A stretch of DNA of 30,328 nucleotides from a virus. This document shows positions 144 through 29,548 of this stretch, piece after piece (within the stretch, counting starts at the first letter, position 1; each line of letters starts with the position of its first letter). The translations under genes were made by a program, and so were the position numbers. Below the pieces are notes generated by a model. The model ran no database searches and was not told the origin of the DNA. It saw only the letters and a list, made by a program, of their open reading frames with translations. The DNA lies in the IMG/VR virus record IMGVR_UViG_3300025168_000415, positions 1-30,328 of that record; one strand, given 5' to 3'.

Positions 144-172
144 TTGACAGGTGACTACGCTTAAGATAAGAT
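144..172 (+). promoter_or_regulatory. Sigma-70-type promoter of the allele-1 regulator gene
   Basis: TTGACA at 144-149 and TAAGAT at 167-172 are separated by 17 bases. One GTGACTACG repeat fills the start of the spacer (151-159) and another follows the -10 box (173-182), 22 bases apart, which is two helical turns. This is the arrangement expected for a repressor that blocks RNA polymerase. It should drive the regulator gene at 212 and probably the terminase genes. Confidence 0.75.
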
Positions 173-378
173 GTGACTACGGTAAATAAAAAGAAGAACT
201 AATAAAGTAGTATGGAAGACATAACAGTAAGAGAGTTTAAGGCGAGGATAAGCCATTACTTAAAGCTAATGAGAGAAGGAGAGAAGATAAGTGTGCGTGG
301 GCAGATAATTGCTAACGTGACTACGGGTGACCACGGCGTGACCACGGATGTACAGAAAAAGGAGGTAAGTGTAGTCAC
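151..378 (+). promoter_or_regulatory. Type-A operator array: six copies of GTGACYACGG
   Basis: Copies lie at 151-159, 173-182, 317-326, 327-336 and 338-347, with one inverted copy at 371-378. The first two are in the promoter. The other four are inside the coding sequence, where the codons give the residues VTTGDHGVTTD. Spacings of 10, 11 and 22 bases place sites on the same face of the helix. The array is absent from the other allele apart from one remnant (29846-29854). Confidence 0.7.
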
Positions 379-700
379 GGAAGATAAGCCAGTGGCTAAG
401 AGTAGTGTGATAGAACAGTTGAGAGCGCAGGTTAAGCAGATTGAGAATAGGGGGAAGGTTCAGTTTGATTCGCTACCGCCAGAACCAGAGATATGGCATA
501 AGGAAGAGTTGGAAGAAGAGGAAGAGCATTTGCCACAATGTGAGTTATGTAAATGTGAGAATGCAGAGAGAACAGTATTTGATGCGGGAGATCGTGGAGA
601 AGTGGATATATGTTTAAGATGTGCGAAGGGCAGGTACGCGGGGAGTATGAAGTTTTTCGATAAGTATTGGAATGGATTGCAAAAAATTAACAACTATTAG
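212..700 (+). CDS. Phd/YefM-like DNA-binding regulator with C-terminal zinc ribbon, allele 1
   Basis: This 162-aa protein has three parts. Residues 3-35 (ITVREFKARISHYLKL, then KISVRGQII) match the pattern of Phd/YefM antitoxins, whose N-terminal fold binds DNA as a dimer. Residues 36-100 are a polar linker followed by a run of glutamates. The C-terminus has a zinc ribbon with cysteines at 110, 113, 134 and 137. No toxin gene sits beside it, so I read it as a transcriptional repressor or centromere-type protein and not half of a toxin-antitoxin pair. Repeated GTGACTACG sites in its promoter and gene suggest autoregulation. The second allele (29678-30136) keeps the C-terminus but has a different N-terminus and different repeats. 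Confidence 0.6.
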   Translation: MEDITVREFKARISHYLKLMREGEKISVRGQIIANVTTGDHGVTTDVQKKEVSVVTEDKPVAKSSVIEQLRAQVKQIENRGKVQFDSLPPEPEIWHKEELEEEEEHLPQCELCKCENAERTVFDAGDRGEVDICLRCAKGRYAGSMKFFDKYWNGLQKINNY

Positions 701-702
701 AT

Positions 703-870
703 ATGGCAAAAAAGATAAACAAAAGGATGCAGGAGTTTGCGGATGTTGGAGGTAGAGGGAAATACGAGATGAGTAAAGGGCAGGGAAGAAGTGCAGAGAC
801 GATAGCTGCTATATTCAAGGAGTATAGGGAGACAGGATCTATTGACGAAAAAAAATGGGCAATAAGATAA
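703..870 (+). CDS. 55-aa conserved protein upstream of the small terminase subunit
   Basis: A 55-aa basic protein starts three bases after the regulator gene ends and overlaps the start of the next gene by 16 bases, so it is part of a compact operon. The first 20 residues differ from the second copy at 30139-30306. From GYEMSKGQGR-like residues onward (position 766) the DNA is identical in both, so the cassette boundary falls inside this gene. The conserved part reads RSAETIAAIFKEYRETG, a predicted helix that could be a helix-turn-helix or packaging-related segment. I do not recognise the family. Confidence 0.6.
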   Translation: MAKKINKRMQEFADVGGRGKYEMSKGQGRSAETIAAIFKEYRETGSIDEKKWAIR

Positions 871-892
871 CTAAAAAGGAGAAGGATAAGGC
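766..892. repeat. Right flank of the variable cassette, identical to 30202-30328
   Basis: These 127 bases match 30202-30328 exactly (offset 29436) and run to the end of the window. Identity is lost abruptly before 766, which looks like a recombination or assembly-bubble boundary. The offset differs by 42 bases from that of the left flank, equal to the length difference of the two cassette alleles. Confidence 0.9.
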
Positions 893-1427
893 GGACAGGT
901 TCTTCCGTAGTTTGGAGGTGGGAGATAAGAAAGCTTTAGAGGACTGGAAAATATCGCGAGAGAACAGGGATTTCATACTGGCTTTGGAAGCGCATGACGG
1001 AGACCCGTATGCGGCGTTTAAGAGTTTGAATGTGCAGTATCGTAAATGGCCTAAGGAGAAATGTCAGAGTCGCGTAGTGGAGATATTGCGGAGGACGGAG
1101 GTGCGTGGTGCGATCGAGGACGCGTTAAGAAGTTATAAGGTTTTTCCTAGTAGGATTATAGGGATGATAGAGCGGATAGCGAGTACAGCTGATCGGGATA
1201 CGGACAGATTGAAGGCGTTAGAGATGTTAGGTAAATGGTGTAGGATATTTAATGAGGATAGTAAAGTTGTGAACGTACATAATAATTTAAACATATCTGA
1301 AGATGCAGCAGTCAGACTCTTGGAACGAAGACACAAGTTCGATATTGGACAAGGAGGAAAGTTCCTCGGAGTTAACGTCGCGGGAGATACAAGCGATGTT
1401 GTGGATGGGGAAACGGAACCTAATTGA
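855..1427 (+). CDS. terS: Terminase small subunit
   Basis: This 190-aa protein lies directly before the large terminase and overlaps it by 125 bases. It is predicted to be the DNA-recognition subunit that brings the packaging motor to the phage genome. Evidence is the gene position, an N-terminal region rich in basic residues, and the segment DRLKALEMLGKWCRIF (about residues 116-131), which resembles the helical motif near the end of many TerS core domains. The C-terminal 50 residues are polar and probably flexible. The first 38 bases recur at the window end. Confidence 0.7.
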   Translation: MGNKITKKEKDKADRFFRSLEVGDKKALEDWKISRENRDFILALEAHDGDPYAAFKSLNVQYRKWPKEKCQSRVVEILRRTEVRGAIEDALRSYKVFPSRIIGMIERIASTADRDTDRLKALEMLGKWCRIFNEDSKVVNVHNNLNISEDAAVRLLERRHKFDIGQGGKFLGVNVAGDTSDVVDGETEPN

Positions 1428-2862
1428 TTATTGTGTTTTAACTCAAAAGAACTATAAAAGTAATTGGCATCACGAACTGATAGCCAGGAAGCTGCAGAAG
1501 GTTGCTATGGGCAAGTGCAGGCGTTTAATGATCTTCTTACCGCCTCGGCATGGGAAAAGCGAGCTAGCTAGTATTAAGTTTCCCGCGTGGTATCTAGGGA
1601 GGTATCCTAATAAAAGCATTATTAGTTGTTCATATTCAGCTGATTTAGCAGAAGACTTTGGTAGATATACTAGATCGCAGGTTGATACGGAAGTGCATAG
1701 AAAGATATTCCCTGAATGCCAGCTTTTAACTGGAAGTAAATCTGCTACTAGATGGAAAGTTTCTACTAGAGGAGGTTATAGAGGAACTGGTGTAGGTGGT
1801 TCGATTACGGGGGCAGGTGCAGATGTTCTGATTATTGATGATCCAATTAAGAATAGAGAAGAAGCAGAGTCAGAAACTATTAGGAGAAAGGTTTGGGATT
1901 GGTATACCTCAACAGCTTATACGCGTTTAGAAAAAAACGGATGCGTGATATTGATTATGACCAAGTGGCACGATGACGATTTAGGTGGAAGACTTCTAGA
2001 TCTTGAAGGAGAAAAGGGATACCACTTGAATACAAAGGCTAACCGCTGGGAAAAAACAACTACTACTTATCCGTTAGGTTGTAAGGTTGGTAAGTGGGAC
2101 GTGCTGCGTTTCCCCGCTATCGCAACGGAACCTGAGGAGTTCAGGAAAAAAGGAGAAGCTCTTTGGCCACAAAAGTATTCGCTAACAGAGCTGCTATCCA
2201 TAAAGGAATCTATTGGGATACGAGACTGGGGATCGCTCTACCAACAAGATCCAGTTACCGAAGAAGGAAGAGAGTTCAAGGAAGAATGGCTTAAGTACTG
2301 GGATACTTTGCCTGACAAACTTACTTACGTGACTACAGTCGATCTAGCTATCTCGAAGAAAGACCATGCCGATGATTCGGTTGTTCTTACTGCAGCTATG
2401 GATAGGAACGATAGGATCTACATAATCGAATATAAAAACTGGAAAGCAGATCCATCAGAAGTTATTGCTGAAATATATAGACAACAAGGACTTTATGATT
2501 CTCGTGTGGCAATTGAAGCTGTAGGGTACCAGTCCGCGTTAGCCCACTATTTGAAGATTGAAGGAAAGCGTAGAGGAAAATACCTGCATGTCTCACAAAT
2601 CCATACTAGATCTAATAAAGAAACAAAGATCCGAGGACTTATTCCCTTATATGCTAATGGACTTATCTTCCATCCACGGAATAGAGCAGAGGTTCTCGAA
2701 GACCAACTCAAAAGATTCCCGTCAGGTAAACATGACGATACGATAGATGCACTTGCGATGTCTCTTCCCTACTTGAAACGTCCATTACAGAAATTCCTAG
2801 ACCCACTTAAGAACTTAAAGATGCGCTATACTAAAGACGGTAGGCCTTATTTCAAGAAGTAA
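1303..2862 (+). CDS. terL: Terminase large subunit
   Basis: The packaging ATPase and nuclease, up to 519 aa. The ATPase has Walker A PPRHGKS (residues 80-86), Walker B VLIIDD (175-180) and a coupling motif MTKWHDDD (219-226). The RNase H-like nuclease has acidic residues at D347 (TTVDLAIS), E405 (VAIEAVGYQ) and D478-D482 (KHDDTIDALA). The ATG at 1303 overlaps TerS by 125 bases. ATGs at 1396 and 1405 would give a more usual overlap and keep all domains, so the start is uncertain. No Shine-Dalgarno site helps to choose. Confidence 0.95.
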   Translation: MQQSDSWNEDTSSILDKEESSSELTSREIQAMLWMGKRNLIDYCVLTQKNYKSNWHHELIARKLQKVAMGKCRRLMIFLPPRHGKSELASIKFPAWYLGRYPNKSIISCSYSADLAEDFGRYTRSQVDTEVHRKIFPECQLLTGSKSATRWKVSTRGGYRGTGVGGSITGAGADVLIIDDPIKNREEAESETIRRKVWDWYTSTAYTRLEKNGCVILIMTKWHDDDLGGRLLDLEGEKGYHLNTKANRWEKTTTTYPLGCKVGKWDVLRFPAIATEPEEFRKKGEALWPQKYSLTELLSIKESIGIRDWGSLYQQDPVTEEGREFKEEWLKYWDTLPDKLTYVTTVDLAISKKDHADDSVVLTAAMDRNDRIYIIEYKNWKADPSEVIAEIYRQQGLYDSRVAIEAVGYQSALAHYLKIEGKRRGKYLHVSQIHTRSNKETKIRGLIPLYANGLIFHPRNRAEVLEDQLKRFPSGKHDDTIDALAMSLPYLKRPLQKFLDPLKNLKMRYTKDGRPYFKK

Positions 2863-2891
2863 TTGCGTTTTTACTAGTTATTTGATATAAT
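2863..2891 (+). promoter_or_regulatory. Candidate promoter before the portal operon
   Basis: TTGCGT at 2863-2868 and TATAAT at 2886-2891 are 17 bases apart, with an extended -10 TG. The expected start point, near 2898, is about seven bases before the ATG at 2905, so the transcript would have almost no leader. Confidence 0.55.
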
Positions 2892-2904
2892 AAACAACAG
2901 CGAT

Positions 2905-3168
2905 ATGAGTATTAAAAAAATCCACGAACGGGCAAATCGTAAAAGAAGGCGCTATGACCATATTGCCTGGGAAGGAATTTGCAAAAAGTGTGGGATTAAA
3001 AAATTTATTTTCGGACATGATATCCGCAGAGATTACGGAGACGGATACAAGGACATGAGGGACGAAACAATCGAATGCATAAGCCAGGAATGTGCTGGAA
3101 AGATTAAGGTCAAAAACAAACTACCGCCTTTACGGGCACTTCATTTAATCGATATCAGTAAACGATAA
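2905..3168 (+). CDS. Small zinc-ribbon protein between terL and portal
   Basis: An 87-aa basic protein with a likely zinc site: CKKC at residues 26-29 and cysteines at 58 and 63. The N-terminus is strongly basic (RANRKRRRY). It sits between the large terminase and portal genes and ends two bases before the portal ATG, so it is co-expressed with the packaging and head genes. A nucleic-acid-binding role is plausible from the charge and zinc site, but the family is not recognised. Confidence 0.7.
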   Translation: MSIKKIHERANRKRRRYDHIAWEGICKKCGIKKFIFGHDIRRDYGDGYKDMRDETIECISQECAGKIKVKNKLPPLRALHLIDISKR

Positions 3169-3170
3169 CT

Positions 3171-5054
3171 ATGGCAAAACTAAACTCCGAAGAGCGTGCA
3201 AGGACCTTGGATTGGATGGTTCAGGTTAACATGGATTTTGATAACCTTACCACTAGGCTAAGAAACAAATGGCTTGATTGGTACAGAATGTACCGAGTAT
3301 TTGAGAACCAGGAAAGATTACCTGGTCAGTCTAATATTTTCATTCCAAAGATTTTTGAAATCATTGAGAAGAAAGTACCACCAGTAATAGCAAAGGATCC
3401 TAAATTTATTGTTACTCCTAGGACTAACGAAGCAACGGCTTATGTAGGGGCTATTCGTGATGCTTTAAACTTTTGGTGGGACGAAGATGGGATGCAGGAA
3501 AAACTAGAGACATGGGTTAAAGACGCGTTTATATATGGAGTTGGTTTCTTAAAAGTAGATTGGTATCAAGAAACAAAGATTCAAACATCCGTTGAAGTTG
3601 AGATTGATGATGACGGGAATGTAGTAGAGAAGGAATATGAAGAAGAAGTTGTTTCGTTTGAACGACCAACTGCAGATCTAATTTCTATATTTGATGTTAA
3701 GGTTGATCCAAGAGTTGAGAACTTTAAAGAAGGTGTTGGAGTTTTACAAACATTACCAAACATGAGGTTCGGAGATTTATTAAAGCTAGATCCTGAACAG
3801 TATGACTTATCAGAAATCAAAGGTTTGAATCCAGAAGAACTACAAGACTCAGGGTTCGCAAGTACGCAGGTGCAAGAACAAGAATGGGATAAAGGAATTA
3901 GTGACGTAAGTGAAAGGATAGATAAAAACCAGATTACCCTACAGGAATACTGGGGGCAATTTTCTAAAAGCGGAAAAGCTAAAGACGAAAGGGAATATAT
4001 AATTACTGCAATTGTTGTAGGAGGAAGTCCTCAATACATTATAAGATGTGAAGTAAACGAACTAGGGTTTAGACCGTTTGTAAAAATGGACGACAGAAAA
4101 ATCAGAGGAGAGTTTTATTCAGTAGGAGAGGTTGAACCATTAGAAGGATTGCAAGTTGAGTATAACAACTTAAGGAATGCAAGACTTGATTTCAACAATG
4201 CCGTTAATTTCCCTGAATGGATCTACAATATAAATGCTGGAATCAATCCTGCTAACTTGGTTCATAGACCAAACAATATTATACCAGTGGACTTACCACT
4301 AGGCTCAGATATTAGAGGAGTGATTAGACCAGTAGAGAAACCGATACAACCAATGAGTGGGTATAATGAAGAAGCGCAACTTAACAGAGATTTTCAAACT
4401 GTATCACAGACCGTAGACTTTACTGACCGAGGTGGATCAGCAGGATTTACTAATACCGCTCGTGGTATTCTTGCTAGAGATGCACAGGTTAATACACAGG
4501 TTAACAATATCGTTAAACACTTAGAGTCTTCAATAGCAGAGCTTGGGGAAATGTGGCTTGCACTAGCAGAAAACTTTGCTGAAGAATCAGAAGCTATAGT
4601 TGTTAGAAGACCAAGAACTGAAGCAGACTTTTTAAAAGACAAGATTTCGCTAGAAGATGCTCCACAAAAATTTACAAAAATAGATACAGAAGTTTTAGGA
4701 GATGCTTTACATAACTACCAAGTAAAGATTGAGGCAGGTTCAACTACGGCTTACGACTCTAGAGGGAAAGCTCAAGACGCAGTTAACATTGCTAACACCG
4801 CAGTTCAATACGCAGCTGTAGGAGTTCCAGTTAACCTAACAAAGATATTCAAAGACATACTAAGAGATTCATTCCAGAAGGCTAACCCAGAATCTTACCT
4901 GATGGAAACTCCGCAACAAACCGGACTAGAAAATGCATTAGCAGAACAAATGATAGGTGGTGGAATACCAGAGGCAGGAAACGCTTTAAGGTCGCAAGGA
5001 GCGCCTGTAACAAACAAGGCTCCGTTACAACCGTCACAGCCTAGCAACTACTAA
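3171..5054 (+). CDS. Portal protein, P22-like
   Basis: A 627-aa protein in the usual portal position after terL. It should form the dodecameric ring at the capsid vertex through which DNA passes. The N-terminal third (GQSNIFIPKIFEIIEKKVPPVIAK, shown here only as a landmark near residues 50-75) and the helical region ending in AELGEMWLALAENF near residues 455-470 resemble portals of podoviruses such as P22. The length agrees with large podoviral portals. The C-terminal 60 residues are rich in Gln, Pro and Ala and probably disordered. Confidence 0.85.
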   Translation: MAKLNSEERARTLDWMVQVNMDFDNLTTRLRNKWLDWYRMYRVFENQERLPGQSNIFIPKIFEIIEKKVPPVIAKDPKFIVTPRTNEATAYVGAIRDALNFWWDEDGMQEKLETWVKDAFIYGVGFLKVDWYQETKIQTSVEVEIDDDGNVVEKEYEEEVVSFERPTADLISIFDVKVDPRVENFKEGVGVLQTLPNMRFGDLLKLDPEQYDLSEIKGLNPEELQDSGFASTQVQEQEWDKGISDVSERIDKNQITLQEYWGQFSKSGKAKDEREYIITAIVVGGSPQYIIRCEVNELGFRPFVKMDDRKIRGEFYSVGEVEPLEGLQVEYNNLRNARLDFNNAVNFPEWIYNINAGINPANLVHRPNNIIPVDLPLGSDIRGVIRPVEKPIQPMSGYNEEAQLNRDFQTVSQTVDFTDRGGSAGFTNTARGILARDAQVNTQVNNIVKHLESSIAELGEMWLALAENFAEESEAIVVRRPRTEADFLKDKISLEDAPQKFTKIDTEVLGDALHNYQVKIEAGSTTAYDSRGKAQDAVNIANTAVQYAAVGVPVNLTKIFKDILRDSFQKANPESYLMETPQQTGLENALAEQMIGGGIPEAGNALRSQGAPVTNKAPLQPSQPSNY

Positions 5055-5063
5055 CATATATAT

Positions 5064-5363
5064 ATGAATATAACTCAATGGAAAGAAAGGATGCGAGTGG
5101 CTAAAGAGAGAAAAGTTATTGATAATATACAGGAGAAGTTAGCTTTAGAAATAAATACTAAGGCTAAAAACTTAAGGGCTTTGGCTAGAACTCCAGGATG
5201 GAAACATTTAAACGAGTACTTCGAGCACAAAGAAAAGCTCTTGAGAGATAAGCTAGAGTTGTGTAAAAAGGAAGAGCTAGTAAACGTACAAGCTGAACTT
5301 AAAGCAGAGAAAGAGTTAAGACGTTTTATTGAAAACGCAGTTAAGTATATTGATAATCAGTAG
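5064..5363 (+). CDS. Small coiled-coil protein of the head region
   Basis: A 99-aa, highly charged and almost entirely helical protein with heptad-like spacing. It contains RTPGWKHLNEYFEHKEKLL at about residues 42-60, a pattern found in small conserved proteins between portal and scaffold genes of several podoviruses. It starts nine bases after the portal stop and is followed by a hairpin. A role in head assembly is inferred only from position. Confidence 0.7.
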   Translation: MNITQWKERMRVAKERKVIDNIQEKLALEINTKAKNLRALARTPGWKHLNEYFEHKEKLLRDKLELCKKEELVNVQAELKAEKELRRFIENAVKYIDNQ

Positions 5364-5369
5364 TAGCGT

Positions 5370-5399
5370 GAAACTTGCCTAAACTCCAAGGTAGGTTTC
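5370..5399 (+). other. Intergenic hairpin before the scaffold gene
   Basis: GAAACTTGCCT at 5370-5380 and AGGTAGGTTTC at 5389-5399 form an 11-bp RNA stem (two G-U pairs) around the 8-base loop AAACTCCA. There is no T-run after it. It may be a partial terminator, an RNA-processing or stability element, or a translation control site for the scaffold and capsid genes. Confidence 0.55.
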
Positions 5400-5424
5400 A
5401 ATCTATTACTTAATTCAAATACAC

Positions 5425-6114
5425 ATGTCAGAAGAAAACTTGGAGTCAAACGACCAACCCGTTGAGGAGTCAGACCAACCAGAAGTAAATTCTAACGACG
5501 AGGAAGACAACCTCGACGAAGATCAACCTCAGGTAGAGGAATCAGACGAAGAGGAAAGTATCCCGGAAGCCGAGTTAAAGGCGGGATATATGCGTCAGTC
5601 AGATTACACTAAGAAGACGCAGGAGCTTGCAGAAATGCGTAAAGAAATTGAAGCTCTTAAAAAACGAACGACAGTTCAGCCAAAAGCAAAGCTTTCCCCT
5701 GAATACGAAAAAGCCAGACAAACTATGAGGAGTCTTGGATTTCTTAGTAAGGACGATATGGCAGAAGAATTCAGGCGTATGGGCGCAAAGAAGGAAATGG
5801 CTAGCGATGCTAAACGGCTTAATGTTTCTGCTGATATTATTGGAGCTGCTCGTCACTTACAAGCCAGTAAGGGGATGAAAGGCGAAACAATAAGTATCGA
5901 CGACGCTGTCAACATTTTAGCTCAAGGGGCACGAACCAAGAAAGTTGTAAAAAGAAAATCGGTTGGTGCTAAAGGGGGTAGTGCTTCCGCTCCTAAGAAA
6001 TCAAGTAGTCAGATTGAACTATCAGAGTTTAGAAAGCTCGATCCCACTTCGGATAAATATTCTAAGGTTATAAAGGATTGGAGATCTGGAAAACTCAAAA
6101 TCATTAACAACTAA
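5425..6114 (+). CDS. Capsid scaffolding protein
   Basis: A 229-aa protein placed between portal and capsid genes. Residues 1-50 are very acidic, then GYMRQSDYTKK (54-64) matches a signature common in phage scaffolding proteins, followed by a coiled coil with many Glu and Lys (65-80) and a basic C-terminal half. Scaffolds guide procapsid assembly and leave before or during DNA packaging; the basic, helical C-terminus is the part that usually binds coat protein. Confidence 0.8.
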   Translation: MSEENLESNDQPVEESDQPEVNSNDEEDNLDEDQPQVEESDEEESIPEAELKAGYMRQSDYTKKTQELAEMRKEIEALKKRTTVQPKAKLSPEYEKARQTMRSLGFLSKDDMAEEFRRMGAKKEMASDAKRLNVSADIIGAARHLQASKGMKGETISIDDAVNILAQGARTKKVVKRKSVGAKGGSASAPKKSSSQIELSEFRKLDPTSDKYSKVIKDWRSGKLKIINN

Positions 6115-6119
6115 TTATT

Positions 6120-6512
6120 ATGATGAATTATACATTCGCTGGTGTAGGAGACATAAGTGATGCAGATGGAACAAGTCAGCTTGCATATGTCGCTCCATAC
6201 TCAGGAAGACTAAGCATTGCAGAATCTACTTTTATGTGGACAGAAGCAACAGGAACACAATCAGGTACTCAAGGAATTTTATCAATTGAAGTTGCAGGAA
6301 CAGAATATGCTACATTAACAGCCGGGCAATCATCTCCTGTTGGAACTGCTCAGCACTATACTGTCGTTGCAAGTGGAGACACTGATGCAGGAAACCCAGT
6401 GGTTTACTTTGACGCAGGCGACACTATTGAGCTGCTTGTAAAAACTCAGGCTGTAGGAGGAACAATTATTGGGGATGGCGCTGCCTACCTAGCAATTACT
6501 TTTGCTGCCTAA
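6120..6512 (+). CDS. Putative capsid decoration protein
   Basis: A 130-aa protein rich in Ala, Gly and Thr with alternating beta-strand patterns and no charge clusters. Its place between scaffold and major capsid genes is typical of head decoration or cement proteins, which sit on the outer capsid surface. Two adjacent ATG codons (6120 and 6123) could both serve. No motif identifies the family, so the assignment rests on position and composition. Confidence 0.55.
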   Translation: MMNYTFAGVGDISDADGTSQLAYVAPYSGRLSIAESTFMWTEATGTQSGTQGILSIEVAGTEYATLTAGQSSPVGTAQHYTVVASGDTDAGNPVVYFDAGDTIELLVKTQAVGGTIIGDGAAYLAITFAA

Positions 6513-6536
6513 CTATTAATTAATATAAAATAAACT

Positions 6537-7361
6537 ATGCCTAATATAACAAATACTACTGCAGACGTTTTCTTGGCAGAAGTCTTCAGTAAAGAAGTAA
6601 TCAGAGAAACAAACCCAAAATTAGTTTTAGCTAAACTGGTTAAAAGATTTGACGACGAAGCTAGAATGGGTAATGACTCTATCAGTGTGCCGACAATTAC
6701 AAACTTTGTTGCCAATGATAAAGTTTCTAATGTACCAGTTTCATTCCAAGCGAATACAGAAACTGATATTATAATCACAATCGACCAACACAAAGAAACA
6801 TCTTTCTTACTGGAAGATATTACTGAGTTACAGTCAAAACAAGACTTGATGAATCACTATACAGATGCAGCATCTACAGCTATCGCAAGAGCAATTGATA
6901 CTTCACTTGCAGCATTAGCTTTAGGTTTCTCAACAGCGACTGGTGTTTACAATACAGCTATTACTACTGACGTAGTTCTAAACTCAATTGAGGCTTTAGA
7001 CCTTGCTGATTGTCCTGAAGACGACAGATCATTTGTTTTCAGATCAGACGTTAAAAGAGATCTACTAGATCTTGCAGCTTACACATCTAGCGATTTTGTA
7101 GGAGGAAAACCAACTGAATCTGGAAATATCGGTAGACTTTATGGTGTAGACACATTCATGTCTAACAACCTAATCTTTACTGGTGGTACTAACAGAAACA
7201 ACATGTTGTTCCACAAAGATGCGTTAGCATTAGCTATGGCTCAACAACCTAGAGCGCAAGCTGAATATTCTGTTTCTCAACTTGGACACGAACTAGTTGT
7301 AGATACAGTTTACGGAGTAAGAGAAATGAGAGATGACTTTGGAGTTTTGGTAAGAACTTAA
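6537..7361 (+). CDS. Major capsid protein, HK97 fold
   Basis: A 274-aa protein directly after scaffold and decoration genes. It has the features of a small HK97-fold coat protein: an N-terminal helix (DVFLAEVFSKEVIRE), a strand-rich middle, and near residues 195-212 the segment GNIGRLYGVDTFMSNNL, a common capsid motif. The C-terminus has VVDTVYGVREMRDDFGV, which also recurs in this family. No protease gene or cleavage signal is seen, so maturation probably does not involve head proteolysis. Confidence 0.85.
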   Translation: MPNITNTTADVFLAEVFSKEVIRETNPKLVLAKLVKRFDDEARMGNDSISVPTITNFVANDKVSNVPVSFQANTETDIIITIDQHKETSFLLEDITELQSKQDLMNHYTDAASTAIARAIDTSLAALALGFSTATGVYNTAITTDVVLNSIEALDLADCPEDDRSFVFRSDVKRDLLDLAAYTSSDFVGGKPTESGNIGRLYGVDTFMSNNLIFTGGTNRNNMLFHKDALALAMAQQPRAQAEYSVSQLGHELVVDTVYGVREMRDDFGVLVRT

Positions 7362-7375
7362 TAGTCTTTTTATAT

Positions 7376-7399
7376 GGTGGGGATTTTCGAGTCCCTACC
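7376..7399 (+). other. Hairpin after the major capsid gene
   Basis: GGTGGGGA at 7376-7383 pairs with TCCCTACC at 7392-7399 (one G-U pair) around an 8-base loop, TTTTCGAG. It follows the coat gene by 14 bases. Without a T-run it is a weak terminator at most, but it could protect the 3' end of a capsid mRNA. Confidence 0.55.
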
Positions 7400-7426
7400 T
7401 ATGAGAATATTATTTAATAAAATGTT

Positions 7427-7810
7427 ATGAAAAAATTAGACACATCTACTGCTTGGGTTGAAAACTCAAAAGGAATGGTATCAGCTGCACCACAATATTT
7501 AGCTGACTATTTCGTAGGAACTAGACCTGGTTGGAAGTACGCTTCGCCAGAAGAAGTTTCTGATGTCAAGCAATATCCTGCAGACATGGAGCTAACAGAA
7601 CTGGGAGTGAAAAGAAGAAGAAGAGCAGCTGAAGTTGCAGCTATTAAGGTTGGGAAAAAGGCAGAAGAAAAAGCAAAGATGGACGCAGTGGAAGAAAAAA
7701 CTGACGGCCTAACATACAAAGAGCTACAAGCTTTAGCTAAAGACAAAGGTGTTCCTAACTACTGGTCAAAGAAAAGCGAAACTTTAAAAGAAGAGCTAGG
7801 TATGCTATAA
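7427..7810 (+). CDS. Virion-region protein with C-terminal HeH/SAP-like domain
   Basis: A 127-aa protein. The C-terminal 33 residues (95-127, TYKELQALAKDKGVPN then KKSETLKEEL) look like the helix-extension-helix fold of SAP, LEM and HeH domains, often found at the end of phage head-completion proteins. Residues 60-85 are basic and helical. It follows the coat gene and a hairpin. It may contact DNA or the capsid vertex, but the family was not identified. Confidence 0.6.
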   Translation: MKKLDTSTAWVENSKGMVSAAPQYLADYFVGTRPGWKYASPEEVSDVKQYPADMELTELGVKRRRRAAEVAAIKVGKKAEEKAKMDAVEEKTDGLTYKELQALAKDKGVPNYWSKKSETLKEELGML

Positions 7811-7823
7811 TAGGGGCAATTAG

Positions 7824-7848
7824 TTGGCGTGGATGGAAAGCTCGTCAA
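7824..7848 (+). other. Weak hairpin before the next virion gene
   Basis: TTGGCGTG at 7824-7831 pairs imperfectly with CTCGTCAA at 7841-7848. It is the third stem-loop in the capsid gene cluster, at the junction between two genes, and is the least stable of them. Confidence 0.3.
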
Positions 7849-7881
7849 GTATTAAATAATTAAAAATTAACCAAAAAAAAC

Positions 7882-8328
7882 ATGGCATTACCTTCTTCGA
7901 GACAACAAAGAGAGTACGACAAGTTTGTTGAACGTGGCGATGGCCAAACAGCCGTAGCAACTGATTCTGAAGCTTATCAGTTTTCTCAAACCTTAATTAG
8001 TTTCACAAACGCCGGTGCAGGAACGTATGTAGGTTACTTAGATATGAAAGGCGCAAAATACGCAGGAATACAATTTGAAAAGTTCGGAGGTACAGATACT
8101 ACTACTGTTACATTAGAGGCGACAATCCAAGATGATGGAACACTGGCTCCAGCAATTATAACTTGGCAAGACGTAACGGCAGCCTTTACTGGTTCTGCTA
8201 ATTTTACTACAGACGCAATGATGTTTTTAGACACTGTTATTGCTTGTAAATATATAAAAGTTCAAGTGGTTGTAGCAGGTGGAGCTAACGACGCTGACTT
8301 TGACGTATACGCAAAGCTCACTACATAA
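7882..8328 (+). CDS. Beta-rich virion protein
   Basis: A 148-aa protein. After a polar N-terminus (SSRQQREYDKFV) it is made of predicted beta strands with frequent Thr, Ala and Gly, as in tail or head-surface jelly-roll proteins. It lies between the coat gene and the fibre genes. The segment TTVTLEATIQDDGTLAP resembles strand pairs in phage structural domains. Function is unknown beyond a likely place in the particle. Confidence 0.6.
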   Translation: MALPSSRQQREYDKFVERGDGQTAVATDSEAYQFSQTLISFTNAGAGTYVGYLDMKGAKYAGIQFEKFGGTDTTTVTLEATIQDDGTLAPAIITWQDVTAAFTGSANFTTDAMMFLDTVIACKYIKVQVVVAGGANDADFDVYAKLTT

Positions 8329-8361
8329 GAGTGTGTTTCATAATATTTAACTTACAATAAC

Positions 8362-8757
8362 ATGACAGTAACTTTATCTTCAAAGGTTGGAGTACTTACA
8401 TCTCCTTTACAGGGTGGTTTAGATTTAAATAATAAACCCATATACCAAACACAATATTCTAATGGTACTTCTGGTGCGACACCTACGGTAGACTTTACGG
8501 CTAACGGGAACTCACAAGGTATTGAATTAGACAACAATGCTACTTTTACTTTTACTGCTCCGCCAGGAGCTTGTCACTTAACTCTTTTGTTTCAACAAGA
8601 CCCAACTGGAGGACATGCAGTTACTTGGCCTGGGATAGTTCAATGGCAAAGCGGTACGGAACCAGTATGGACAACCGCTGCAAACGATATAAACATAGCG
8701 TTCTTCTATTTTGATGGTGCTAGATATAACGGATCAGGATTGGTAGACGTTTCTTAA
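8362..8757 (+). CDS. Small tail-fibre-type protein
   Basis: A 131-aa protein. Its second half (AVTWPGIVQWQSGTEPVW, then a stretch ending FFYFDGARYNGSG) matches a pattern that is common at the C-terminus of phage fibres, where strands end in a W-P and a G-x-Y-x-G motif. Here it stands alone in a short gene just before the giant fibre. It may be a separate fibre tip or a trimerisation partner. Confidence 0.65.
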   Translation: MTVTLSSKVGVLTSPLQGGLDLNNKPIYQTQYSNGTSGATPTVDFTANGNSQGIELDNNATFTFTAPPGACHLTLLFQQDPTGGHAVTWPGIVQWQSGTEPVWTTAANDINIAFFYFDGARYNGSGLVDVS

Positions 8758-8769
8758 ATAAAATAAAAC

Positions 8770-11700
8770 ATGGCGAATAAAATATTTACTACAGCTGCTT
8801 CCGCTACAACCGCCAGTGGTTCTGCGAATAGGCATCTAGGGGTTCCAATTGAGATAGAACCAGGATGGATTTTGCAGCTGGTCTGTCCTAGCAGCACTAC
8901 GTTTGCTACAATAGATTACTCAGTGGATGTTGCAACTGGAGCTATAGGTGCACGGACTGCACACACTGTTATAGGAGTTGCTCCTACGAATAGTGGGATT
9001 ACACTTACTGACAGTGTGTTGTTTGATTCAACTCATATGTTGTCAGTCTTTCAAGATGCTACTAGTGGAAATATAAATGCAATGATTTGTGAATGGGACC
9101 CAGCAACTCATACACATACCAGCCATACAGTTACTGACCTTGGGATTGCTGGTGGGGGTGCTGGTACTGGGTTTTTTGTGAATATGGAAAAGATTGACGC
9201 TACGCATTACCTAGTTGTTTATAATACTTATGCAAGTTTAATGTCTCAGGTTATAGAAGTTAACGCTGGAACTTACGCAGTGACTACGGTTGGTACGCCT
9301 TTAACTGTAGCTACCACTCCGTCAGTTGCACAGGGCCATGTGGTACAGATTGACGCTACACATTATTCAATAAGTTATACTTATAGAAATGCTGCTGCGA
9401 CAGCTAGTGGGTTTTTCATGATCGTCGAAGTTAACCTGGGTACTTGGGATGTAACTACAGCAACTGCAGAAACTGACTTAGGTTTAGGAGCCCCAGCTAA
9501 TTCTTATATTACGAGTTATTATATTGATTCGCTTACTTGGACTTTTAAAGTATCGGCTACCAAGGTGGTTGTTTTTTACAATACAGGGACACTCGCAACT
9601 AATAAAACATGTTACAGAATTGTAGATATAAATATTAGTACCTGGGTGATTACAGTTGGAGCCTTACAGTTATTGGGAGGACAGACATCTGGATATATGA
9701 GTGCGGCTTATTTAACACAGCCTGACCTTACTGTAGCAGAAGGATATTTTAGTTGTAATGTAAGGCAATATAGATCGCAATCAATGTATAAGATAGGTTT
9801 TGATGCAGTTAACGGTATCATTACAATACTTTCAAATGCTTTCAATGCATGGACAAACGGTCAATTGATGAGGTATTCACCAATGGGGCAAGTGGCAGAG
9901 ATGAATGGAGGAGATATTATTGTTCAATGTTACAGAGAGGCTAACGGGGGTTTCCCCCGTATACGTTCTGTTTTCAATACCGATTCGCCAACAACAGTTG
10001 GTTTAATAGGGCCAGTCGCTAGTGGAACAACTGGAACTCAGGGTCAAGAACGAAACTATCCAGATATTGTCGCTATAGATGCTACGCATTTCGTTGCGTT
10101 AGGTACGACATCAGCCTATCCATTTATAACGTATGGAGTAGACGCAGCTGGACAGATACAGCTTTTAGACGCCAGCTTTAATACAGCTTATTACGGTAGT
10201 GTAACTGGTGTTATGCTTGATAGTACACACATGCTGCTCTCAATAGATCAATATAAATTTAGAGTCGCAGAGGTTGATGCTAACTATATTGGGAGCTGGT
10301 CAGCAGCAGAAACATCATTATCCTCAGGAGGGACTGACACTCACAATGGCGTGAGGATGTATATAGCCGGAGAAGATGCTAGTTATTATTATGTAATTGT
10401 TAATAGATATTCTACCGGAACTACTAGTGCGGCAAGTGTAGTTAGTATTGATAAGGCAACATGGGTAATTGCGCAAGTAGGTTCTGACTTAACAGGAATG
10501 GGTACTAACGATGGGTATGATATGACTCCAATTGAGGGGTATACGGACAAATGGTTGTGTGTATATCAAAATACTACTTTAAGAGCTATAGTGGTTGGAG
10601 TGAACGGATCTTTTGAGCCAGTTCTTGAAGGAGCAGAATTTGACTTTGGTTTTGTAGGCGATTTTCCAAATGTACAAAGTGTTGATGCAACACACGCCGT
10701 AGTGACATATAGTGATGGTGGCTTTGATGGATGGGCAGAAACCCTAGCGATAAATGTAGGAACATGGGCAGTATCAGTAGCATCTGCTGCAGCATTTGAA
10801 TTTGAGCCAATATGGTTAAACGAGTTTAAAAGCCGTTTAGTTAAGGTAGATAACAACCATGTTGCATTAATATGGGGGAATACGAGTTCATCAAATTATG
10901 TAAATTATAATAGCAAGAGTTCTCTTGGGGTTCTTGAAATGGACGCGTCGACCTACAACCTTACGATGCCACAGAATATATTATTAATAGCTGGCGAGGG
11001 TGATCAGTCGGCGTTGGGTCTTTTAGATTCCGATACTATTATGTCTTCAAGTTCCACAGATACTCTTAGCGGCTCTAGTTCGTCATACAATATCCAGCTT
11101 TGGGATGTTGCTGCAGGATCTGTTACTCCTACTCAGGTTGTAATAACTTCTGCGGGAGTTGATTTTACAGCAGGGGCTTCTACTACATTACAAGTTCAGG
11201 TTCAAGATGCAGGTGGAGTTCTTGACGCATCAGACAATACAACTCAAATAACATTTACTCCTACATCACAGGGACAAGTAACTGGTGTGGTAACTGGAGC
11301 TAATATATCTGGTACAGGTGCAGTAGGTAATCCAAGAGTTGTACAAGTAGCTGGAGGTGTAGCGGAAGTTACAATTGAAAACGTAACAATAGAGACTTTT
11401 GAAATAGCGATGACTAATAGTATTGGTTTAACTGACCCGGCAAACGATTCGATAACTACAAGTGCAGGGGTAGCAGCAAAGGTTGTGTTCACGCAAGATC
11501 CAACATCAGCAGTAGCAGGTGTTAATTTCTCACCAACTATTACCGCATCAATTCAGGACGCTTATAACAATGTTGTTAATTCAACAGCCAACGTTGTGTT
11601 ATCTATTAACACAGGGGTAGGTATTTTGAATGGTGTAACAACAGTAGCGGCAGTTGCTGGTGTAGCTACATTCAGCAGTATTAATATTAACGAGGCAGGA

Positions 11701-12504
11701 ACCTTTATATTAGATGTTGATTCTACAGGGTTAGCTACAGATACTTCGCCTAACTTTACTATAAGTCCAGCGGCAGCGTCTGCTGTAGGTTTAAAAGGGG
11801 CGGCTGCAGATTTCACTGCGGGAGGAAGTTCTACTCAAATAATTCAAATACAAGATGCATTTGGGAACTTAATTGCTTCAGACAGTACTACGCAGGTTAC
11901 ATACTCACCTACATTAAGTGGAGCAGTAACAGCCGTAATAGTAGGAACGAACGTAGCTGGTACTGGTTTACCTGGAGCAACAAGAACAGTGCAGGTTGCT
12001 GGAGGTATATCACAGATAACTTTAGAAGATACAGTAGCGGAAACGTTCGAGATTGTATTCTCTAATAACGGAGGTTTCAGTAATCCAGCAAATGATTCAA
12101 TCATAGTTTCTGCAGCGGCAGCTACTAAGGTTAGCTTAACTGGAGCTGGTTCTAACTTTGTTGTTGGAGGTAACACTACAGTTTCTCTACAGATACAAGA
12201 CACATACAATAACTTAATCACAACGGATAGCACTACACAGGTAACGCTTACGCCTACTCTAGCTGGACAGATCTCAGGAGTGGTAACTGGTACCAACATT
12301 TCTGGTACGGGCGCACCTGGGGCAAACAGAGTCGTAGAGGTTGCAGGAGGAATAGCGTCAGTAACAGTAACTAACTTAGTAATACAGACATTTGAAATAG
12401 CGTTTATTAATGACGGGGGATATTCAAATCCTGCTAATGATTCGATTGAGTCCTTGGCTATTGTCATAGGTGGAGCTGGGGTTATGGTAGGATTTATGTT
12501 TTAA
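8770..12504 (+). CDS. Giant 1244-aa propeller and Ig-like virion fibre
   Basis: The largest gene. Residues 1 to about 780 contain a repeated D-A/S-T-H motif followed by hydrophobic residues, at about positions 86, 143, 195, 437, 484 and 639, with a degenerate DNNH at 694. This looks like blades of a beta-propeller. Four Ig-like modules follow, starting near 788, 902, 1003 and 1118. Modules one, three and four share QDA/T-N-LI-DSTTQ, GTGAPG and NPANDSI-type segments; the second is a different Big/filamin-like unit. The protein ends in a hydrophobic tail (LAIVIGGAGVMVGFMF). Such proteins usually bind host surface sugars or proteins. Confidence 0.7.
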   Translation: MANKIFTTAASATTASGSANRHLGVPIEIEPGWILQLVCPSSTTFATIDYSVDVATGAIGARTAHTVIGVAPTNSGITLTDSVLFDSTHMLSVFQDATSGNINAMICEWDPATHTHTSHTVTDLGIAGGGAGTGFFVNMEKIDATHYLVVYNTYASLMSQVIEVNAGTYAVTTVGTPLTVATTPSVAQGHVVQIDATHYSISYTYRNAAATASGFFMIVEVNLGTWDVTTATAETDLGLGAPANSYITSYYIDSLTWTFKVSATKVVVFYNTGTLATNKTCYRIVDINISTWVITVGALQLLGGQTSGYMSAAYLTQPDLTVAEGYFSCNVRQYRSQSMYKIGFDAVNGIITILSNAFNAWTNGQLMRYSPMGQVAEMNGGDIIVQCYREANGGFPRIRSVFNTDSPTTVGLIGPVASGTTGTQGQERNYPDIVAIDATHFVALGTTSAYPFITYGVDAAGQIQLLDASFNTAYYGSVTGVMLDSTHMLLSIDQYKFRVAEVDANYIGSWSAAETSLSSGGTDTHNGVRMYIAGEDASYYYVIVNRYSTGTTSAASVVSIDKATWVIAQVGSDLTGMGTNDGYDMTPIEGYTDKWLCVYQNTTLRAIVVGVNGSFEPVLEGAEFDFGFVGDFPNVQSVDATHAVVTYSDGGFDGWAETLAINVGTWAVSVASAAAFEFEPIWLNEFKSRLVKVDNNHVALIWGNTSSSNYVNYNSKSSLGVLEMDASTYNLTMPQNILLIAGEGDQSALGLLDSDTIMSSSSTDTLSGSSSSYNIQLWDVAAGSVTPTQVVITSAGVDFTAGASTTLQVQVQDAGGVLDASDNTTQITFTPTSQGQVTGVVTGANISGTGAVGNPRVVQVAGGVAEVTIENVTIETFEIAMTNSIGLTDPANDSITTSAGVAAKVVFTQDPTSAVAGVNFSPTITASIQDAYNNVVNSTANVVLSINTGVGILNGVTTVAAVAGVATFSSININEAGTFILDVDSTGLATDTSPNFTISPAAASAVGLKGAAADFTAGGSSTQIIQIQDAFGNLIASDSTTQVTYSPTLSGAVTAVIVGTNVAGTGLPGATRTVQVAGGISQITLEDTVAETFEIVFSNNGGFSNPANDSIIVSAAAATKVSLTGAGSNFVVGGNTTVSLQIQDTYNNLITTDSTTQVTLTPTLAGQISGVVTGTNISGTGAPGANRVVEVAGGIASVTVTNLVIQTFEIAFINDGGYSNPANDSIESLAIVIGGAGVMVGFMF

Positions 12505-12518
12505 CTTTTGAGTATAAT

Positions 12519-12743
12519 ATGGAAGAAGTAATAGGGTATTTACCAACAATGGTCATAATAATCACAGTAGTAGTTTGGTTAGTCCGTATGGAAGGAAAGG
12601 TTAACCATTTAGATAACGAGGTTAAGGAAGTTAAGCAAGAGGTGCATAACGTACTCGAGTTGAAACCACTGATTGTACAAATACAAAACGATATTAAATG
12701 GATAAAGAAACTTATAGAATCTAAATTTACTAATAAAAATTAG
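12519..12743 (+). CDS. Small membrane-anchored coiled-coil protein
   Basis: A 74-aa protein with a single membrane segment at residues 8-22 (PTMVIIITVVVWLV) and then a coiled coil rich in Val, Glu and Lys (27-70). It starts 14 bases after the giant fibre gene, with a TATAAT box directly touching its ATG. The shape recalls spanin-like or haemolysin XhlA-like lysis accessories, but it lies far from the lysis genes. It could instead help in DNA entry or fibre attachment. Confidence 0.6.
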   Translation: MEEVIGYLPTMVIIITVVVWLVRMEGKVNHLDNEVKEVKQEVHNVLELKPLIVQIQNDIKWIKKLIESKFTNKN

Positions 12744-12745
12744 TT

Positions 12746-13432
12746 ATGACAGGACAACAAATTATAGACAATGCTAGAACAGACATGGCTATTGATCCAG
12801 GCAAAGAGATATGGACGGATGCACAGCTACTTAGGTATTTAAATGAGGGGGCGTCATTTCTTTACGCTAAAGCAAGTTGGAAGTATGAGTTTAAAGATGG
12901 AACAGTTAACCCGTTAGTACTAGGTCAGGCTAACTACGCATTACCTGCTGACTTCAGAAGACTGTTATGGATTAAGGTTATTGATAATACAATGCCAGTT
13001 ACGGCTAACTCTTCAGTTATTCCTATGGTAACTAATGACTTGTCAAACTTTCAAAAGACAAGAGACATGGACGCTACAGGGATTGGCCCAAGCTTTGCGT
13101 ATATAGAGGATAGTGAGCTTTACATATGGCCATTACCAAACGCAACAGCAGTAGCTACTTATAGTTTGAAATTTAAATATGTTAAGTATCCTTCAGAAGT
13201 AACAGGAGTAGACACACCAATCTTCCCAGCTGAATGGCACTTTATCTTAGGAAACTATATAAGATATAGAGCGTTCGCTAGTAAACCAGGTGGAAATAAT
13301 AAGGTCTATGCACAAGATGCTTTAAACGAATGGGAGCTTTGGAGTAAGAAAGCGATAGCGGATATGCTACATATACAAGACGAAAGACTTACATATATTA
13401 TGCCAATATTGCCATCTAATAATCCTAAATAA
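12746..13432 (+). CDS. Head-to-tail adaptor protein (gp4 / gp11-like)
   Basis: A 228-aa protein. The opening segment (IIDNARTDMA, then WTDAQLLRYLNEGASFLYAK) is typical of podoviral adaptor proteins such as P22 gp4 and T7 gp11, which form a ring under the portal. A strand-rich middle (ANYALPADFRRLLWIKV) and a C-terminal helical pair agree with that fold. Its stop overlaps the next gene's start as TAATG, so the two are translationally coupled. Confidence 0.75.
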   Translation: MTGQQIIDNARTDMAIDPGKEIWTDAQLLRYLNEGASFLYAKASWKYEFKDGTVNPLVLGQANYALPADFRRLLWIKVIDNTMPVTANSSVIPMVTNDLSNFQKTRDMDATGIGPSFAYIEDSELYIWPLPNATAVATYSLKFKYVKYPSEVTGVDTPIFPAEWHFILGNYIRYRAFASKPGGNNKVYAQDALNEWELWSKKAIADMLHIQDERLTYIMPILPSNNPK

Positions 13433-14988
13433 TGTCCACGATTAACATCAGCAACTTTACAGGGGGACTGAATACCGGAGAGGAAGAAACTATCCGGGAC
13501 AATGAGTTGGCTTTAGCTAGGAATGTTTCCTATGATTACCAAGGAATGCTAGGTGTTAGGCCTGGTCTTTTAAACTTTGGTGCAGAGATACCAGGTGTAG
13601 ATGGGATTCATAGTATTTACTTTACTACCTTCACTACTGGAGTAAGGATCTTGCTATGTACAGCAGGTACAGATGTTTACCTATATGATGAGGGAACAAG
13701 TACATGGAACAGTATTCAATCTGGATTAACAGATGGTTTAGATTTTAGCTTTATCACATATAAGGATGTTGTTTATTGGTGTAATGGTACAGATGACTTT
13801 ACTAGTTACGATGGGACTACGGTCGTACCATATCCTGCAGTAATAAAGCCTAAGTATATGGCAGTACAAAATGATGTAGCTTATGCAGCTGGTATTTCTA
13901 CTGATCCTAGTACAGTGTTTTATACCGCAGCTAATCCAGCTTCAATCAATGCTGACGGGTTTTCAAATGATGAGCCTGTTAACCAGGACGAAGGAATCAT
14001 TACAGGGATTAGACCACTAGGAGCTTTACTTGTTGTAGGAAAGAGTCAGGGGATTTACCTAGTGAATATCTTTACAACTACCCCAACAATAGAAGCTTTA
14101 GATTTTGAAGGAGACGTTACGTCTCATAGAAGTATGGTTAGTGTGGAGAACAACATGATATTCATGAGCACTAATGGAGTTTATTCTTTATCGCAAAGAC
14201 AAGGAACCACAGGTTCTTATAGAGCTTATGCTTGGTCTGAGAACATTGAGAAAGATGTTAAGGCGATAGAAGATAAGACTTCAGTATCAGCTGTTTATTT
14301 TCCCCGTACTAACAATGTTTTTATGAGCGTAGATTCTGGTGAGGTAAGTAGACCAGACAAGATGTTTTTATTAAACACTTTAGTTTCTATACCTGGTCAG
14401 TACAAGTTTGCTTGGACAGAGTATACCAATATTACAGCCAATGACTTTACTATATACGAAGACGCTAATGGTATAGAAAGATTACTGGTAGCTAATTCGT
14501 TTGGTGGACAGGTGGTAGAGATGGAAAGAGAAGATCAATATTCAGATAACGGGTTAGAGATAGGAACCATTATGAGAACAAAGACTTTTGACTTTGATGT
14601 TCCTCAAGCATATAAAGTATTTAGAGGATGTAACCTAACTGGATTTATAACAACTAACGAGACAGTTACATTCAAGGTGGACATTGATGGGGTAGAAACT
14701 TCAAAGACATTTACTGGTACGCCCTATGCTACAGGTGATGATTCAGATCCATTCCCTCTAGGTGAAGAGGACTTAGGGATAGATCCTTTAGGAGGAGGCC
14801 CAGTAGCCACAGATGGTCTAGACTTTTATATATTTACAAGCCGTCGTAGTTTCCAGAAGTACGGACTTCGTATGACTATACAAATTGAAACAACCAGTTT
14901 AAATTCTAGTATGAAGATGACGAAACTAGCATTCCCAGTAGAAGCTATGGACGACACTATATTTCCAACAGATTACATTGTAACGTAA
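13432..14988 (+). CDS. Tail nozzle / hub beta-propeller protein
   Basis: A 518-aa protein beginning INISNFTGGLNTGEEE and then LARNVSYDYQGMLGVRPG, the standard opening of phage nozzle proteins related to T7 gp12 and P22 gp10. It is strand-rich, with repeated blade-like segments, and follows the adaptor gene, as in other podoviruses. It should form the hexameric tip that continues the DNA channel and binds the fibres. Confidence 0.75.
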   Translation: MSTINISNFTGGLNTGEEETIRDNELALARNVSYDYQGMLGVRPGLLNFGAEIPGVDGIHSIYFTTFTTGVRILLCTAGTDVYLYDEGTSTWNSIQSGLTDGLDFSFITYKDVVYWCNGTDDFTSYDGTTVVPYPAVIKPKYMAVQNDVAYAAGISTDPSTVFYTAANPASINADGFSNDEPVNQDEGIITGIRPLGALLVVGKSQGIYLVNIFTTTPTIEALDFEGDVTSHRSMVSVENNMIFMSTNGVYSLSQRQGTTGSYRAYAWSENIEKDVKAIEDKTSVSAVYFPRTNNVFMSVDSGEVSRPDKMFLLNTLVSIPGQYKFAWTEYTNITANDFTIYEDANGIERLLVANSFGGQVVEMEREDQYSDNGLEIGTIMRTKTFDFDVPQAYKVFRGCNLTGFITTNETVTFKVDIDGVETSKTFTGTPYATGDDSDPFPLGEEDLGIDPLGGGPVATDGLDFYIFTSRRSFQKYGLRMTIQIETTSLNSSMKMTKLAFPVEAMDDTIFPTDYIVT

Positions 14989-18454: not shown

Positions 18455-18469
18455 TAACATAAAAATGTA

Positions 18470-21427: not shown

Positions 21428-21443
21428 ACTATAATTTAACCAA
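21424..21443 (+). promoter_or_regulatory. Intergenic element CTATAATTTAACCAA, copy 1
   Basis: Nineteen of 20 bases match 22809-22828. TATAAT at 21430-21435 lies 14 bases before the GTG start of the protease gene. No good -35 hexamer is present at 17 bases. It may be a late promoter using only a -10-like box, or a translation-start signal. Confidence 0.4.
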
Positions 21444-23095: not shown

Positions 23096-23125
23096 TTGAC
23101 AGGGAAAAGAAATTTTTCTTAGAAT
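23096..23125 (+). promoter_or_regulatory. Rightward promoter 2 in the convergent gap
   Basis: A perfect TTGACA at 23096-23101 and TAGAAT at 23120-23125 are 18 bases apart. The expected start point, near 23132, coincides with the first base pair of the structured RNA that follows. Confidence 0.6.
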
Positions 23126-29078: not shown

Positions 29079-29123
29079 CTAGAACACATTCTTAAAAGAA
29101 CTTCAAGTACACAACTAACCAAA

Positions 29124-29154
29124 AGGTTTGTAACAAATAATATTGTGCAAACCT
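29124..29154 (+). terminator. Terminator-like hairpin after the small early genes
   Basis: AGGTTTG (29124-29130) pairs with CAAACCT (29148-29154), and ACAA / TTGT pair inside, giving a long stem. It lies 45 bases after the last small gene. It has only a weak T-rich tail, so termination is likely but not certain. Confidence 0.45.
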
Positions 29155-29194
29155 AGTTTAGTGTTTAACAGAAGGGGAAAGTAGAACCCAGTTA

Positions 29195-29290
29195 AGAAAA
29201 GCGCCGAATCCCTAAAGGTCACTTACTGGTACAAGCATAGTAGCTAATACCTAATAGATTAGAAAAAACGCCGATACTCTAAAGGCCACT
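29195..29290 (+). repeat. Two tandem structured repeats with conserved CGCCGA / CTAAAGG core
   Basis: Units at 29195-29223 and 29261-29290, 66 bases apart, share AGAAAA, CGCCGA, CTAAAGG and CACT at the same relative places. The flanks pair differently: CCAGTTAAG with CTTACTGG in the first, TAGATTAG with CTCGTCTG in the second. Inside, GCC pairs with GGT or GGC. The core is kept while the stems vary with pairing retained, as for a structured RNA or a protein-bound site. Confidence 0.5.
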
Positions 29291-29449
29291 CGTCTGTCTT
29301 AACCACCTATTAACTATTACCCTTAAAGGCCCTCTCTAATTGTTTTCTTTCTTTTAGAAAACCCTTTCTTTCTTTCGATAGTTTTCTTAAGTTTATCAAA
29401 ACAAAGACGAACTTGAACTGGAAAACCAAAACCGGTGAAAGGCTAAACT

Positions 29450-29548
29450 ATGGCTAGTTTAAACGGTAAACGTGCAGAGTCAAGAGTCATGACTTCTAGA
29501 AGAGAAGGGGTGTACCCCCCGGGAAAAGGGGCCCCACAAGTACATTAA
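29450..29548 (+). CDS. 32-aa basic protein (complete copy)
   Basis: ATG at 29450 opens a frame of 32 codons ending VYPPGKGAPQVH. The partial copy at 2-70 keeps the frame with one conservative base change and one Gly/Glu change. Its first residues are basic (GKRAESRVMTSRREG). It lies between the non-coding region and the variable cassette. It has no recognisable motif. A purely structural DNA role for this strongly palindromic stretch is also possible. Confidence 0.45.
   Translation: MASLNGKRAESRVMTSRREGVYPPGKGAPQVH

Follow-up and report, generated by a model that had tools for sequence, protein, structure and literature searches.

A putative phage regulator gene and its matching repeat arrays exchanged as one cassette upstream of the terminase genes

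Introduction

Each end of the uncultured phage record IMGVR_UViG_3300025168_000415 (30,328 bp, analysed over its whole length and here called the window) carries a gene for a putative DNA-binding regulator, and each of these genes is accompanied by its own family of short repeats. A preliminary description of the sequence proposed that regulator and repeats are replaced together. The question raised by this locus is whether the two versions, here named T1 and T2, are separate genes or variants of a single locus, whether the type of regulator predicts the type of repeat in related phages, and what such a pairing could be for.

Results

Gene content and position of the regulator

Those gene products of the window that were scanned against Pfam and PHROGs included terminase, portal, capsid, a metallopeptidase, a Cas4-like nuclease and a DnaD-like replication protein; among them no integrase or lysogeny gene and no partition ATPase (ParA/ParM-type) was recognised. 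The regulator is the first gene of a long same-strand run which continues with a small ORF, TerS, TerL, portal and onward structural genes. No toxin gene adjoins it, its neighbours being the small ORF (55 aa; 703-870, plus strand), which has no toxin match, and then TerS. No promoter better than that of the regulator was found between this gene and terS, and there was no Rfam match. A strong promoter-like site elsewhere in the window (TTGACA-18-TAGAAT, 11/12 consensus letters; 23096-23125, plus strand) lies in the intergenic gap at which the late and replication gene blocks converge, with no obvious plus-strand gene downstream.

Two non-coding elements were found 5' of the regulator. A conserved leader palindrome, GGGGTGTACCCC, which holds a TGTAC core, precedes both the T1 and the T2 alleles (30-42 and 29508-29520). 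About 400 bp of non-coding DNA at 29086-29480 contain repeated CTAAAGGYCACT-like elements (29192-29223 and 29259-29290) that are also found in contig L043, and this region is a candidate origin or packaging element. The DnaD-like gene was inspected as a competing origin, with no convincing repeats.

Repeat arrays of the T1 and T2 alleles

The T1 regulator gene (212-700, plus strand; 162 aa) encodes a predicted N-terminal Phd/YefM-like domain, a linker and a C-terminal zinc-ribbon-like domain with the pattern CxxC...CxxC. Its promoter, TTGACA-N17-TAAGAT, is found at 144-172 on the same strand. Six GTGACYACG-type sites are associated with the allele, two of them in the promoter: the first, GTGACTACG, lies in the spacer (151-159, plus strand), and the second immediately 3' of the -10 element (173-181, plus strand). 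Three more plus-strand sites begin at 317, 327 and 338 within the gene (317-346), followed by an inverted copy with one mismatch (370-378, minus strand). When up to one mismatch is allowed, these six sites compare with 0.13 expected for the locus.

The T2 regulator gene encodes 152 aa from an ATG at 29678 (29678-30136, plus strand), behind a promoter with 12/12 consensus letters (TTGACA-N18-TATAAT; 29642-29671, plus strand). Seven plus-strand CGTATGACA-type sites were counted, against 0.15 expected: three putative promoter operators at 29626, 29639 (CGTTTGACA) and 29657 (29626-29665), and four within the gene at 29781 (ending in ACG), 29801, 29822 and 29834 (29781-29842). The six and seven sites in equivalent promoter and intragenic places given in the preliminary description were thus recovered, with the same counts.

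The intragenic copies fall in different reading frames (0, 1, 0, 2 in T1, the last one inverted; 1, 0, 0, 0 in T2). The T1 and T2 repeats are therefore repeats of DNA and not of peptide, and a peptide-repeat reading was rejected for both. Elsewhere in the window, no 240-bp stretch outside the regulator locus contained more than one T1- or T2-type site.

One locus with two population variants

The last 127 bp of the window are exactly those of 766-892, and its first 42 bp are those of 29479-29520. A length of 127 is a common assembler word length, and we attribute the overlapping ends to an assembly bubble, the genome being closed or permuted. Regulator genes are single in the relatives: seven contigs have one each, and in an eighth (G002) the only copy is split by nothing more than a run of ten N, so that a frameshift reading of this gene was rejected as an artefact. 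The exact 127-bp overlap and the single copies in relatives led us to reject T1 and T2 as two genes of one genome; they are variants of one locus, which most simply represent two coexisting strains of the sampled population.

Contig G001 carries T2. Its alignment to the window, which spans 455-14833 (14.4 kb), has 99.2% identity with the diverged 3' part of the cassette counted in. In 100-bp steps, the first 5.7 kb past the cassette were mostly 98-100% identical, with one step of 95%, in terS. The exchanged piece spans approximately 122 to 765 (about 640 bp) and takes in the promoter, the regulator gene in full and the first part of the small ORF that follows. It had been proposed that the N-terminal domain differs between alleles while the C-terminus is conserved. 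The T1 and T2 N-termini are indeed only 27% identical, no better than shuffled sequences (z = 1.3), and the C-termini 53-60%, but the C-terminus is included in the exchanged piece.

Four of the nine contigs of this phage group start within about 150 bp of the boundary between leader and cassette, namely the window (position 1, equivalent to 29479), G001 (29524), G003 (29513) and L009. Such starts fit either coexisting alleles that break assemblies or a physical genome end. A second mosaic region was seen at 18161-21430 of the window, where the gene for a 985-aa protein is approximately 70-87% identical to G003 or unaligned, between flanks that are 92-94% identical.

A third type and the concordance of regulator and sites

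Relatives were gathered through TerL, TerS and a family alignment, and all of these queries returned the same few contigs, giving eight related viral contigs. Seven of them (L003, L004, L005, L006, L007, L008 and L012) encode T2 proteins and contain 6-7 T2 sites. The remaining contig, L009, represents a third type, T3, with a different N-terminus. Of its seven TGTACA sites, three lie in the promoter (TTGACA-N17-TAAAAT; spacings of 22 and 17 bp) and four in the gene (21, 12 and 12 bp). Across all types the arrays contain 6-7 sites, against 0.1-0.3 expected.

The regulator type predicts the putative operator type at every locus, in all three types (T2 in seven contigs and in the window), as the preliminary description had anticipated. 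The TerL tree indicates about two replacement events: L009 is sister to L008, a T2 phage, and TerL is identical in the window and L003 although their regulator types differ. The sample behind this concordance is small, since it comprises only three types and about two such events.

Comparison of the three alleles showed a common layout. In each genome all sites fall in one cluster of about 230 bp, and a sigma70-like promoter is overlapped by sites in all three. The T1 and T3 promoters share the arrangement TTGACA-[site]-TAANAT-[site], with one site beginning within about 2 bases 3' of the -35 element and the next directly after the -10 element, 22 bp apart, and only the letters of the sites differ. 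In T2, the -35 element lies within one site, and another site fills the spacer beside the -10 element. The second group of sites lies in the linker-coding region in each type, and most spacings are 10-12 or 20-21 bp. For T3, whose intragenic sites share a single frame, the argument for a DNA repeat rests on the promoter copies.

The N-termini of T1 and T3 are 53% identical (z = 17 against shuffles), and no relatedness of the T3 N-terminus to T2 was detectable by sequence. Within T2, N-termini are 90-95% and C-termini 77-84% identical, the reverse of the pattern between T1 and T2. Between the T2 allele of the window and L008, synonymous change was found in 6/38 codons of the N-module versus 182/467 of TerL; this low value fits a recent spread of the module or a constraint from the embedded sites.

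Single sites of a foreign type were found beside the arrays. In the window, the T2 array is followed by a T1-type site (29846-29854) and a TGTACA (29857-29862), both on the plus strand (29846-29862). The T1-type site is exact in all T2 alleles except L012, where it has one mismatch, and one TGTACA follows the array in all T2 alleles except L008. The T1 allele also carries one TGTACA (349-354), the T3-type hexamer. Such sites may be remnants of previous arrays that stayed behind at a recombination junction. The count of lone TGTACA hexamers in T1 or T2 is within chance; a T1-type site, as found in T2 alleles, would be expected less often by chance, but the same letters encode a conserved Asn-Val-Thr-Thr. 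The relic idea is attractive but unproven, because the residues encoded at these sites are also conserved.

Identity of the regulator domains

The N-termini of T1 and T3 matched PF02604 at its start, with E values of 0.032 and 0.049; the scores of 14.4 and 13.8 bits do not reach the curated cut-off of 29.8, and the profile did not match T2. A structure search with the T2 model (Foldseek) returned Phd-type antitoxins as all of the top 11 PDB matches, with E values of at least 0.16 and low pLDDT, and the first match in BFVD was a PhdYefM protein of phage S-CAM1 (E 0.13). The predicted models were poor, with mean pLDDT of 54 and 49. The TGTACA core of the T3 sites, and the 12-bp spacing of some of them in the gene, are those of the YefM/Axe operator (PMC7730913; PMC4803016). 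None of these three weak lines is decisive alone; together they support a Phd/YefM-type DNA-binding domain. The Phd-like half of the earlier label "Phd-like, zinc-ribbon" thus gained three weak independent lines of support, while the only sign of the zinc ribbon is the CxxC...CxxC pattern.

The regulator was not filed as an antitoxin, since it scores below the PF02604 cut-off and has no toxin neighbour, and the locus is not a bona fide toxin-antitoxin system. Searches of the regulator family against Pfam, NCBIfam, PHROGs and PADLOC gave nothing convincing, a T1 single-protein scan of viral contigs gave no match, the T3 query matched only itself, tblastn found no T1 homologue in phage records, and neither the regulator family nor TerL was matched in genome contigs. 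Within a limited search of open-access papers, no earlier account of a phage regulator of the Phd-type, zinc-ribbon kind came up.

Discussion

Proposed function

The reading we prefer, to which we give an even chance, is that the locus encodes an autorepressor heading the packaging/late operon, with a specificity that is exchanged as a cassette and works like that of immunity groups. Autoregulation is well supported by the anatomy of the promoter region: the regulator would block its own sigma70 promoter by binding the two or three operators there, and the three or four operators in the linker-coding DNA would probably strengthen repression through cooperativity, looping or a roadblock. In this way the regulator would set the level or timing of the packaging/late operon, and it probably tunes this operon since it heads the same-strand run and no better promoter was found before terS. 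From the same gene order and absence of a better promoter we infer that the regulator promoter also drives terS and terL.

Protein and sites must match, so a specificity can change only when both change together, and the location of sites inside the gene means that one recombination moves protein and sites at once. Intragenic sites could thus be a simple answer to the problem of changing regulator and operators simultaneously, and in these phages, whose backbones are nearly identical, the two are swapped as a single cassette. A purely private autorepressor hardly explains why one backbone carries several specificities, and action across phages would make sense of it: most likely the specificities persist because the regulator made by one phage also acts on another phage of its type that infects the same cell, as with immunity groups. 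The sequences show matched arrays, sites that overlap the promoter, exchange of the cassette and agreement of regulator and site in three types, whereas DNA binding, repression, late-gene control and an immunity-like role or benefit are inferences. Classical lysogenic immunity is not indicated, because the proteins scanned included no recognised integrase. No operators were found at early lytic promoters or genome-wide, the clusters being confined to the regulator's own locus, which leaves no obvious target among the other phage promoters. More tentatively, and in our view less likely than not, the locus could be a distinct immunity-like type-specificity system, combining a Phd/YefM-derived domain, a zinc ribbon, and promoter and intragenic operators, in which natural phage populations maintain several specificities through cassette swapping and lone sites of former types persist at the junction.

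Alternative explanations and known systems

The strongest mechanistic rival has the layout of lambda O, in which the protein would be a replication initiator, or the locus a packaging (pac) or partition element, with the sites as iterons and the types as replicon-specificity groups. The lambda origin lies inside gene O, whose product has a DNA-binding N-terminus, a flexible linker and a partner-binding C-terminus (PMC7466680; PMC6022878). The phage locus resembles it in its putative N-terminal DNA-binding domain, in having one locus per genome, its sites concentrated as in an origin or centromere, and in the three to four type-specific sites inside the linker-coding region; spacings near 10-12 and 20-22 bp also resemble iterons, and the regulator gene is close to terS. 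Its sites, however, occupy the promoter too, in all types, and no AT-rich unwinding stretch was found (no 40-bp stretch exceeds 80% AT, and the richest lies at the 3' end of the gene). A DnaD-like replication protein is encoded elsewhere in the phage, no ParA-like protein was recognised among the proteins scanned, and the position among packaging genes counts against the lambda O layout. We consider this explanation unlikely.

Only slightly more probable, and still improbable in our judgement, is an orphan antitoxin-derived autorepressor, or an antitoxin against a host toxin, whose types reflect drift and phage mosaicism with no immunity or exclusion. The autoregulated yefM-yoeB, axe-txe and phd-doc operons offer a close likeness, in the weak domain match, the sites that occupy the promoter spacer and adjoin the -10 element, and the TGTACA core of T3, in part at YefM/Axe spacing. 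The genomes are mosaic elsewhere too (18.1-21.4 kb), and the homologous T1 and T3 N-termini, with changed sites, indicate that gradual change occurs. Unlike those operons, the phage locus has no adjoining toxin gene, a next ORF without toxin match, a zinc-ribbon-like C-terminus, three to four internal sites, two other site types and a place at the head of a packaging operon. Swapping would also bring little gain to a private autorepressor, yet the backbones on which T1 and T2 coexist are nearly the same. That the pattern is a biologically meaningless artefact of assembly is very improbable: the two alleles do stem from two overlapping contig ends, but seven other contigs independently contain T2 and one more contains a third type, which already refutes an artefact for the alleles themselves.

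For the preferred autorepressor with exchangeable specificity, there are parallels in immunity systems. In Cluster A mycobacteriophages, short repeated stoperators co-vary with repressor type, are found genome-wide, as many as 30, and include one at the repressor's own promoter (PMC6550527). Both systems have short sites that match the regulator type, also at its own promoter, but here the sites are at one locus, there is no sign of the same repressor family, and no lysogeny genes were recognised.

In lambdoid immunity regions, phages that are otherwise alike exchange cI/cro together with their operators as one unit. The swapping of regulator and putative operators as a single cassette is the same here, whereas the phage locus has a single gene, intragenic operators and a probable Phd-type rather than helix-turn-helix domain.

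If the types truly exclude each other, these would be immunity groups that use an antitoxin-type DNA-binding domain, in phages where no lysogeny genes were recognised, and their specificity exchange would have been seen in wild populations on a backbone of approximately 99% identity. Even if the protein is merely an autorepressor, T1, T2 and T3 would form a natural series for change of DNA specificity in Phd-type proteins.

Other TerL relatives

The more distant TerL relatives that were inspected, L013 and L015-L019, have no such gene upstream of terL. In the T2 contig L012, TerL (2365-5034) is 889 aa long, with an apparent in-frame intein after approximately residue 173; nested in another frame inside the insert is an ORF (3020-3874) for an HNH-like, cysteine-rich protein of 284 aa. 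Contig L011 may share this insertion, since its TerL match begins at residue 174.
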